In this document: positions 10,083 to 12,575 of the stretch, piece by piece
Position numbering within the stretch: the first letter of the stretch is position 1
Layout of the letters: every line of letters starts with the position of its first letter
Assembly: GCA_020627925.1 (NCBI GenBank)
Contig: JAHDFY010000001.1
Coordinates: 251,297 to 315,296 of the forward strand
Length of the DNA stretch: 64,000 nucleotides
Direction of reading: 5' to 3'
Source: a bacterium
Lineage (GTDB): Bacteria; Patescibacteriota; Gracilibacteria; Absconditabacterales; Absconditicoccaceae
Position numbers and translations under genes: made by a program
Notes under the pieces: model-generated
Databases searched by the model: none
The model's input: only the letters and a program-made list of their open reading frames with translations
What the model was told of the DNA's origin: nothing

Positions 10083-10265
10083 TTTAGAATAACAATAAAT
10101 AATTGTATATGATCCGAATGTTTTTTGAGATTTTAATAGAAAGGTGAATGAATAGAAGCTAATATTGTTGGTAAGTGAAATATGCAGAAAACTAGCATTC
10201 TATAGAAATATTGCAATTGTATAGAAGAATCTCTATACTAGTAATAGTTTATAATTATTAGGAAA

Positions 10266-10316
10266 ATGATCAAAAACAGACAAAATACATCATATTATTA
10301 CTACTTCCGCAGCTAG
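10266..10316 (+). CDS. tyrS leader peptide with four consecutive Tyr codons
   Basis: A 16-codon ORF, MIKNRQNTSYYYYFRS, with TAT TAT TAC TAC at 10293-10304 and TAG stop at 10314-10316. A TATAAT box at 10250-10255 puts the ATG almost at the transcript start. It lies about 100 bases before tyrosyl-tRNA synthetase and overlaps the first arm of the attenuator. Four tandem cognate codons before the matching synthetase gene are very unlikely by chance. It would act as a Tyr-tRNA sensor through ribosome stalling. Confidence 0.8.
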   Translation: MIKNRQNTSYYYYFRS

Positions 10317-10398
10317 GAAGAGTTTTTCTGTGTATTCATTTTTAATTAAACTACTTCCTATAGAGCACTCTAGCTGACAAAGGGAAGTGGTTTTTTTT
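10293..10398 (+). promoter_or_regulatory. Transcription attenuator of tyrS
   Basis: A textbook four-segment attenuator. Segment 1 CTTCC (10304-10308) pairs with segment 2 GGAAG (10316-10320). Segment 2, as TAGGAAG (10314-10320), pairs perfectly with segment 3 CTTCCTA (10354-10360). Segment 3, as ACTACTTCC (10350-10358), pairs with segment 4 GGAAGTGGT (10383-10391), followed by eight T, forming the terminator. The Tyr codons overlap segment 1, so a stalled ribosome frees segment 2 to pair with 3 and prevents termination. CAGCTAG (10310-10316) can also pair with CTAGCTG (10370-10376). Confidence 0.8.
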
Positions 10399-10415
10399 AT
10401 TCTAACACAATTAAC

Positions 10416-11630
10416 ATGAAAACTATTAATACTAATGAAAATCTAATTGATGATATTCTTTCACGTAGTATTTCTGATATATTACCATCAAGAAAAGAAT
10501 TAAAAGCGAAATTACAAAGTTGAGAGCGCTTGAGAATATATATTGGTGCTGATGCAACATGAACAGCATTACATTTGTGACATGCTACTAACTTTATACT
10601 ATTAGAAAAATTGAGACAATTAGGCCATGAAACAATAATCTTGATCTGAGACTTCACAGCTCGTATTGGAGACCCTACAGATAAAACTGCCACAAGAGTA
10701 AAGTTGACACGCAAACAAGTAATTGATAATACAGTTACTTGGTTAAAACAAATTGGAGCAGTGGTTGATATCCAAAATAAAGATAACCCAGTTTCTATTG
10801 TTCATAATCACGATCGATTATCAAAACTTAGTTTTGAGGATATTATAGAACTATCTTCTCATTTTACTGTTCAACAAATGTTAGAAAGAAGTATGTTTAA
10901 ATGAAGGATGAACAGTCAACAACCTATACATATGCATGAGTTTTTTTACCCACTAATGCAGTGATTTGATAGTGTGGAGTTAGATGTTGATATTGAGCTT
11001 TGTGGTAATGACCAACTATTTAATGCTATGGCTTGAAGAACATTAATGAAGAAAATCAAAAGTAAAGAAAAATTTGTTGTTACTACAACCTTATTAGAAA
11101 ATCCCAAAACATGAGAGAAGATGATGTCAAAGAGTTTGGGTACAGGGATTTTCCTTGATGAAGATCATATATCAATGTTCTGAAAGGTTATGGCACAACC
11201 AGATGAAAACATTCCACAACTGTTCACTGATTGTACACTAGTGTCTGTAGAGAAGATTAATGAAATTCTATTAAGTAACTCGAATCCTAGAGATAGTAAG
11301 CTTATATTAGCTTGGGAAATAACAAATCTCTTCCATTGAAGAGAATTAGCTGATTCAGCAAAGAATAACTTTGAACAGGTAGTTCAAAACAAAGAAATTC
11401 CTGTAGAGATTGATGAAATAATAGTGTCCAAAGATTCTATAAATATTGTTGAGGCCCTAATCTTGGCTAAGTTTGCAAAATCGAATGGAGAAGCAAAGAG
11501 GTTAATTATTCAAAATTGAGTAAAGATTGATGGTAGTACCATCGCATCAATTAATGAACAGATCTCTCTGAATAAAGAATGAGTAGTTGTACAAAAATGA
11601 AAAATTAACTTTGTAAAAATTAAAAACTAG
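10416..11630 (+). CDS. tyrS: Tyrosyl-tRNA synthetase
   Basis: A 404-residue class I synthetase that charges tRNA-Tyr. The Rossmann part shows IYIGADATGTALHLGHATN (HIGH motif), IGDFTARIGDPTDKTATR, the Tyr-site region HFTVQQMLERSMFKGR and FFYPLMQGFDSV. The KMSKS equivalent is EKMMSKSLGTG (K235-S240), with Met in the first motif position after a Lys. The C-terminal S4 RNA-binding domain is NGEAKRLIIQNGVKIDG. Most glycines in these motifs are TGA. The ATG at 10416 follows the attenuator by about 18 bases, with no Shine-Dalgarno sequence. Confidence 0.95.
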
Positions 11631-11842
11631 ATGGTCTAAAAGCAATAGATATAGTTAGTCTGTATATACTGCTTTCTGACTTCATAAAGAAAAGTAAGGT
11701 AAGATACGCTAGATCCCTGATCCAATGTTACATCAAAGTCACAGATGATGAAGACGGAATTATTTCAAGATTGAATGATAAACAGATGATTGTGTATGAT
11801 TTGGACGGTTTCGAAGAGGCTACAGGTATAGGAAGATACTAA
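11624..11842 (+). pseudogene. Truncated S4-like ORF derived from the tyrS 3' region
   Basis: The frame is open from 11624, overlapping the end of tyrS in another frame, but has no ATG. It reads LDGLKAIDIVSLYILLSDFIKKSKVRYARSLIQCYIKVTDDEDG and ends GIGRY at 11842. IDIVSLYIL...KSKVRYARSLIQCYIKV mirrors the TyrRS segment INIVEALIL...KSNGEAKRLIIQNGVKI, so it looks like a diverged S4 domain. The last 150 bases are nearly identical to the ORF at 12375-12575. Confidence 0.45.
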
Positions 11843-12374: not shown

Positions 12375-12575
12375 TTGAACAGCTCTGCGAGCATTGTGAA
12401 CAATATCTATGACTTCATAAAGAAAAGTAAGTTAAGATATGCAAGATCATTGATTCAAGGTTATATCAAGATTACAGATGATGAAGACGGAATTGTGTCC
12501 AGATTGAATGATAAACAGATGATTGTGTATGATTTGGACGGTTTTGAAGTTGCAACTGGGATTGATAGGTATTAA
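12375..12575 (+). CDS. Stand-alone S4-like small protein
   Basis: A 66-codon ORF starting at TTG 12375 (or a later GTG), reading NSSASIVNNIYDFIKKSKLRYARSLIQGYIKITDDEDG and ending GIDRY. The helix-turn KSKLRYARSLIQGYIKI is S4-like and matches the tyrS C-terminal domain. Nearly the same sequence occurs at 11689-11842. It has no good ATG, so it may be an expressed small RNA-binding protein or a repeat. No TGA is used. Confidence that it is a gene is moderate; that it is S4-related is better. Confidence 0.45.
   Translation: MNSSASIVNNIYDFIKKSKLRYARSLIQGYIKITDDEDGIVSRLNDKQMIVYDLDGFEVATGIDRY

Follow-up and report, generated by a model that had tools for sequence, protein, structure and literature searches.

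The stretch considered here (the window) comprises 64,000 nucleotides (nt) of an Absconditicoccaceae genome (contig JAHDFY010000001.1, positions 251,297 to 315,296) and carries a tyrosyl-tRNA synthetase (TyrRS) gene, tyrS, downstream of ppa. The tyrS gene is preceded by a short leader with an open reading frame (ORF), alternative pairing arms and a terminator, and the features of this locus, in a lineage reading TGA as Gly, are as follows.

10211 to 10239, plus strand: candidate promoter TTGCAA-N17-TATACT, whose elements and spacing recur upstream of the second tyrS copy of the genome
10266 to 10316, plus strand: leader peptide gene encoding MIKNRQNTSYYYYFRS, recognised from the sequence, comparison with the paralogue and shuffling
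10293 to 10304, plus strand: regulatory Tyr codons TAT TAT TAC TAC, read from the sequence
10304 to 10308, plus strand: arm 1, CUUCC, overlapping the last Tyr codon, partner of arm 2
10314 to 10320, plus strand: arm 2, UAGGAAG, beginning at the leader stop codon, from folding
10349 to 10398, plus strand: intrinsic terminator 3:4 with T8, 12 pairs and one mismatch, from folding and comparison of the copies
10354 to 10360, plus strand: arm 3, CUUCCUA, partner of arm 2 (antiterminator) or arm 4 (terminator), from folding
10383 to 10392, plus strand: arm 4, GGAAGTGGTT
10416 to 11630, plus strand: extra tyrosyl-tRNA synthetase gene of parcubacterial type, with 13 TGA codons read as Gly

The leader ORF starts with ATG at 10266 and runs for 16 codons to a TAG stop at 10314-10316, and its four Tyr codons overlap arm 1; the 16-codon ORF and this overlap were described in an earlier, sequence-only reading of this DNA. 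That reading also called the 1:2, 2:3 and 3:4 arrangement perfect; the arrangement is there, while the adjective is slightly generous, given one mismatch in 3:4 and only five contiguous pairs in 1:2. Arm 3 lies inside the left terminator arm (AACTACTTCC, 10349-10358), the T8 tract occupies 10391-10398, and the terminator ends 18 nt 5' of the tyrS ATG (10416), in agreement with the proposed T8 terminator just before a TyrRS gene. The identity of that gene is supported by a TIGR00234 match (294 bits, cut-off 113.8) with intact HLGH and KMMSKS motifs. The minimum-energy fold of the leader contains both the 1:2 and 3:4 stems and reaches -35.8 kcal/mol (z -2.98), with none of 200 shuffles equally stable. 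In dinucleotide shuffles of the upstream region, a YYYY run in an ATG-initiated ORF of at most 35 amino acids occurred once in 5000, and such an ORF together with a terminator never did (0/5000). The locus combines the hallmarks of a classical attenuator, namely a short ORF whose codon run matches the amino acid of the downstream gene, mutually exclusive 2:3 and 3:4 pairings, and an arm 1 overlapping the regulatory codons, and the match of codon run to gene recurs at phhA, thrS and valS, as described below.

Three tyrS-like genes are encoded in this genome (G000; 1.27 Mb in 10 contigs): that of the window, a near copy (G000:C5:20864; 85% by tblastn, 355/404 amino acids identical by direct alignment), and a third, about 28% identical, resembling the ordinary tyrS present as a single gene in most family members. 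Since the closest relatives of the window TyrRS are parcubacterial, with up to 60% identity (Moranbacteria), the window gene was most likely acquired as an additional synthetase gene. Comparison of the two copies shows stronger conservation of the region from leader to ATG (137/150 nt, 91%) than of the coding sequence (1041/1215, 86%), and on both sides the flanks fall to the identity of random alignments. The paralogue leader encodes MIRNRQNTSYYYYFRS and differs at two positions in the ORF, one Lys-to-Arg change and one synonymous change, leaving the Tyr codons untouched; a G-U pair in the window terminator is A-U in the second copy. The second copy is also preceded by TTGCAA-N17-TATAAT at about equal distance, and matches to the promoter consensus are not commoner than in shuffles. 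Downstream of this copy (L031 7227-10808), a phage-type integrase gene and an OLD-like nuclease gene follow, and these surroundings suggest a putative mobile island.

A weak blastn match (68%, E 0.05) on another contig of this genome revealed a third Tyr leader, MTTFMTHSQSYYYFLS, with its terminator, and directly after it lies a fourth, dissimilar one, MIILAHMYYYYCFP, with a terminator of its own. These tandem attenuators with different arm sequences (L115, G000:C8:13000-18500, 3530 to 3237, minus strand) precede a gene for a biopterin-dependent aromatic amino acid hydroxylase, phhA (PF00351, E 6.5e-26), the product of which probably converts Phe to Tyr. Such a tandem arrangement of leader-peptide attenuators is unusual. 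The third leader is related to that of the window, sharing the ACTACTTCC and GGAAGTAGT arms; its arm 2 has gained an A (UAAGGAAG) and its arm 3 a U (CUUCCUUA), keeping the 2:3 pairing. The fourth follows the same plan with different arms. The hydroxylase gene is present in 3 of 49 family genomes. In one of these, G019, which belongs to another genus, phhA lies directly 5' of tyrS, and MSVSLFTSTYYYYSTRLYCKGLSL and CCACCTTACGAGGTGG-T8 precede the pair; this YYYY leader is independent of that of the window. In G021, a hairpin was found before phhA and no Tyr run was found there. Among the loci examined from 75 further Tyr-run patterns in the genome, no other convincing attenuator was found, and a 28-nt match in G001 was dismissed as chance. 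Viral contigs gave no TyrRS or hydroxylase, and their 83 matches to a 16-nt leader pattern are within reach of chance.

The pairing of arms 2 and 3 was assessed with a co-transcriptional model, adopted after an equilibrium model did not separate the Tyr states, in which the ribosome footprint reaches 12 nt beyond the first base of the A site and the RNA extends only up to arm 4. In this model, a stall on the Tyr codons frees arm 2, and a ribosome at the stop codon covers it: for the window, 2:3 pairing is 0.98-1.0 with the ribosome on any Tyr codon and 0.31 at the stop. The corresponding values for the other four Tyr leaders, on the Tyr run and at the stop, are 0.97-1.0 and 0.01, 0.99-1.0 and 0.20, 0.82-0.84 and 0.13, and 0.91 and 0.00, while an isolated fifth Tyr codon 3' of the run in G019 does not free arm 2. 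Compared with shuffles of the intervening sequence, the five Tyr leaders give a combined p of 1.8e-4, two of them being near-copies and hence not independent.

Cognate leaders also occur before other synthetase genes. Using as definition an ATG-initiated ORF with at least 5 Thr in 8 residues upstream of thrS, Thr-run leaders were found in 13 of 29 family genomes (e.g., MKHIHSTTTTTTTTTIV and MSYSTTTTTTTTTD), for a shuffle expectation below 0.05. Their pairing differs from that of shuffles with p 4e-14, a value obtained on 13 leaders related to each other. Across 12 aligned Thr leaders, arm 3:4 carries compensated changes at a level reached by none of 500 shuffles. Similar thrS leaders without in-frame TGA are seen in class members outside the family (G291, G443 and G468), some of the outside-family leaders emerging once non-ATG starts were allowed and the threshold was relaxed. 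The thrS leaders with their terminators (L297-L326 and L327-L344) thus span family and class and constitute a broader finding than tyrS itself. Leaders with Val runs (VVV, VVVV and VV) and terminators precede valS:

L267 / L369 (G000:C10): valS leader MIASTFFFSSVVVTL
L370 (G043): valS leader MKTNTLSVVVVN
L266 (G042): valS leader MKTSKLSVVI

The pheS upstream regions of 7 genomes showed no cognate run, and the mechanism is therefore not used for every synthetase; a generic scan for attenuators of all amino acids was dominated by chance matches. Judged from these sequences, the putative attenuation mechanism is lineage-wide.

The anatomy, conservation and pairing potential of the window leader make it very probable that tyrS is controlled by classical ribosome-mediated transcription attenuation sensing charged tRNA-Tyr, and the attenuation proposed by the sequence-only reading is supported by the leader kept in the paralogue, the Tyr leaders at phhA and the Thr and Val leaders at thrS and valS. 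The transcription, leader translation, stalling, antitermination and physiological role that we infer would proceed as follows. With enough Tyr-tRNA, the ribosome would reach the leader stop and cover arm 2, and the 3:4 hairpin would end transcription before tyrS. Under a shortage of Tyr-tRNA, the ribosome would pause at any of the four Tyr codons and cover arm 1; arm 2, left free, would pair with arm 3 ahead of the synthesis of arm 4, and RNA polymerase would continue into tyrS. The two tandem Tyr leaders would put the probable Phe-to-Tyr hydroxylase gene of the same genome under the same signal. Because the TyrRS under its control would be an acquired second one, the element probably provides a reserve synthetase that is inducible and could help under tyrosine scarcity or inhibition of the ordinary enzyme.

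It could be speculated that a T-box or another tRNA- or metabolite-binding riboswitch controls tyrS and that the short ORF is incidental, as T-boxes and attenuators both use a terminator/antiterminator pair and firmicute tyrS genes are regulated by T-boxes. Yet, an Rfam scan of the window and the other leaders gave no relevant family and no T-box at gathering score, and no T-box appeared in the leader at E values up to 10. Moreover, the leader is only ~150 nt long, independent leaders retain the Tyr run, and for Tyr, Thr and Val alike the repeated codons correspond to the amino acid of the gene, making this explanation extremely improbable. Equally, the leader may act on tyrS translation or reinitiation rather than termination, as leader genes very near the next gene can boost its translation through reinitiation (PMC4833913). 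However, the leader stop lies 99 nt from tyrS, and each of the five Tyr leaders has an intrinsic terminator in this interval, so that we consider such a role highly unlikely.

Several observations weigh against attenuation. Taken individually, the second phhA attenuator (p 0.32) and that of G019 (p 0.09) are not significant. In the Thr set, pairing of arm 2:3 reaches 95%, but with covariation that is weak and not clearly above shuffles. Shine-Dalgarno-like sequences are weak or absent, and at equilibrium the terminator is favoured (~0.9) in the Tyr leaders of G000 even with the ribosome on Tyr. No Tyr leader was found at the ordinary tyrS of this genome, at ordinary tyrS genes across the family (the phhA-tyrS operon of G019 excepted) or at tyrS of 20 other class members, and none was seen at tyrS of the parcubacterial relatives. 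The expectation that the leader is conserved at relatives' tyrS thus fails as literally stated, because the window tyrS is an acquired extra copy and not their orthologue; from its absence in the parcubacterial relatives, the leader was probably acquired once the gene had been transferred. Given the stability of the terminator at equilibrium, the switch must be kinetic, with arm 2:3 forming first, as is usual for such switches. The same dominance of the terminator, the weak translation signals and a promoter-like match at 10374-10403 would also fit a hairpin that constitutively terminates the transcript of ppa upstream, or a tyrS promoter located after it, with an ORF arising by chance. Such an arrangement is nevertheless very unlikely, as the leader is conserved above the gene between the copies, its YYYY run is rare in shuffles, and matching leaders stand before phhA and in G019, with cognate Thr and Val leaders elsewhere.

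Two known systems come closest, namely the Phe leader before pheST and the His leader at hisS paralogues in bacilli. In Rfam, the window leader scores best with the Phe_leader (RF01859), at 22.9 bits (E 0.1; full length, correct strand), far below the gathering score of 55. The enterobacterial pheST and pheA leaders of this family have similar alternative arms and a terminator, whereas here the codons are for Tyr instead of Phe, the genes behind the leaders are tyrS and phhA, and the lineage is unrelated and reads TGA as Gly. The Tyr T-box of firmicute tyrS and tyrZ follows the same logic, in that uncharged tRNA-Tyr favours read-through ahead of a TyrRS gene, but binds the tRNA directly without a translated ORF. 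Leader-peptide attenuation was long known only from Proteobacteria and Actinobacteria, to which hisS of bacilli was added (PMC2965389). The His leader before the hisS/hisZ paralogues likewise attenuates an extra, duplicated synthetase gene and differs in amino acid, sequence and phylum (Naville and Gautheret 2010, PMC2965389). Classical attenuators also lie 5' of trpS and leuS in Streptomyces, yet these concern Trp and Leu in Actinobacteria, and the same paper lists T-box regulation for tyrosine genes of other bacteria (PMC1262725).

While the mechanism is already known, its specificity for Tyr, its targets and its occurrence in this lineage look new. In the open-access literature, no account of leader-peptide attenuation was found for Absconditabacteria, the sole co-mention with Patescibacteria concerning a peptidase family, and this is apparently the first sign of such attenuation in a lineage whose members are tiny and for the most part uncultured. 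Neither a leader specific for Tyr nor its association with a Phe-to-Tyr hydroxylase appears to have been described, although the 2010 survey by Lopatovskaya and co-workers may hold a Tyr leader. The chances seem evenly balanced for a wider joint scenario, in which Patescibacteria of this class would generally control several synthetase genes (thrS, valS and tyrS) by leader-peptide attenuation where firmicutes use T-boxes. In the same scenario, a Tyr cassette would have been copied between the hydroxylase gene and a foreign tyrS, yielding a Tyr-inducible reserve synthetase later duplicated into the region with the integrase and OLD-like nuclease genes. Class-wide attenuation in a deep, small-genome and partly UGA-recoded lineage would bear on the age of the mechanism or the ease of its re-invention, and would offer a testable explanation for the matching of tRNA charging to amino acid supply in bacteria in which few regulators are known.

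Other features were observed in passing. Two similar short frames 3' of tyrS (window 11653-11842 and 12375-12575) end in RYARSLIQ.YIK.TDDEDGI.SRLNDKQMIVYDLDGFE.ATGI.RY, the first without a clear start and the second without a Pfam match. Further along the window, 45717-45848 matches the ribosomal protein L10 leader at 44.1, for a gathering score of 44. Finally, residues ~494-654 of an IleRS frame (L265, G000:C6) match phosphoserine phosphatase models at ~75 bits, apparently representing an inserted domain.
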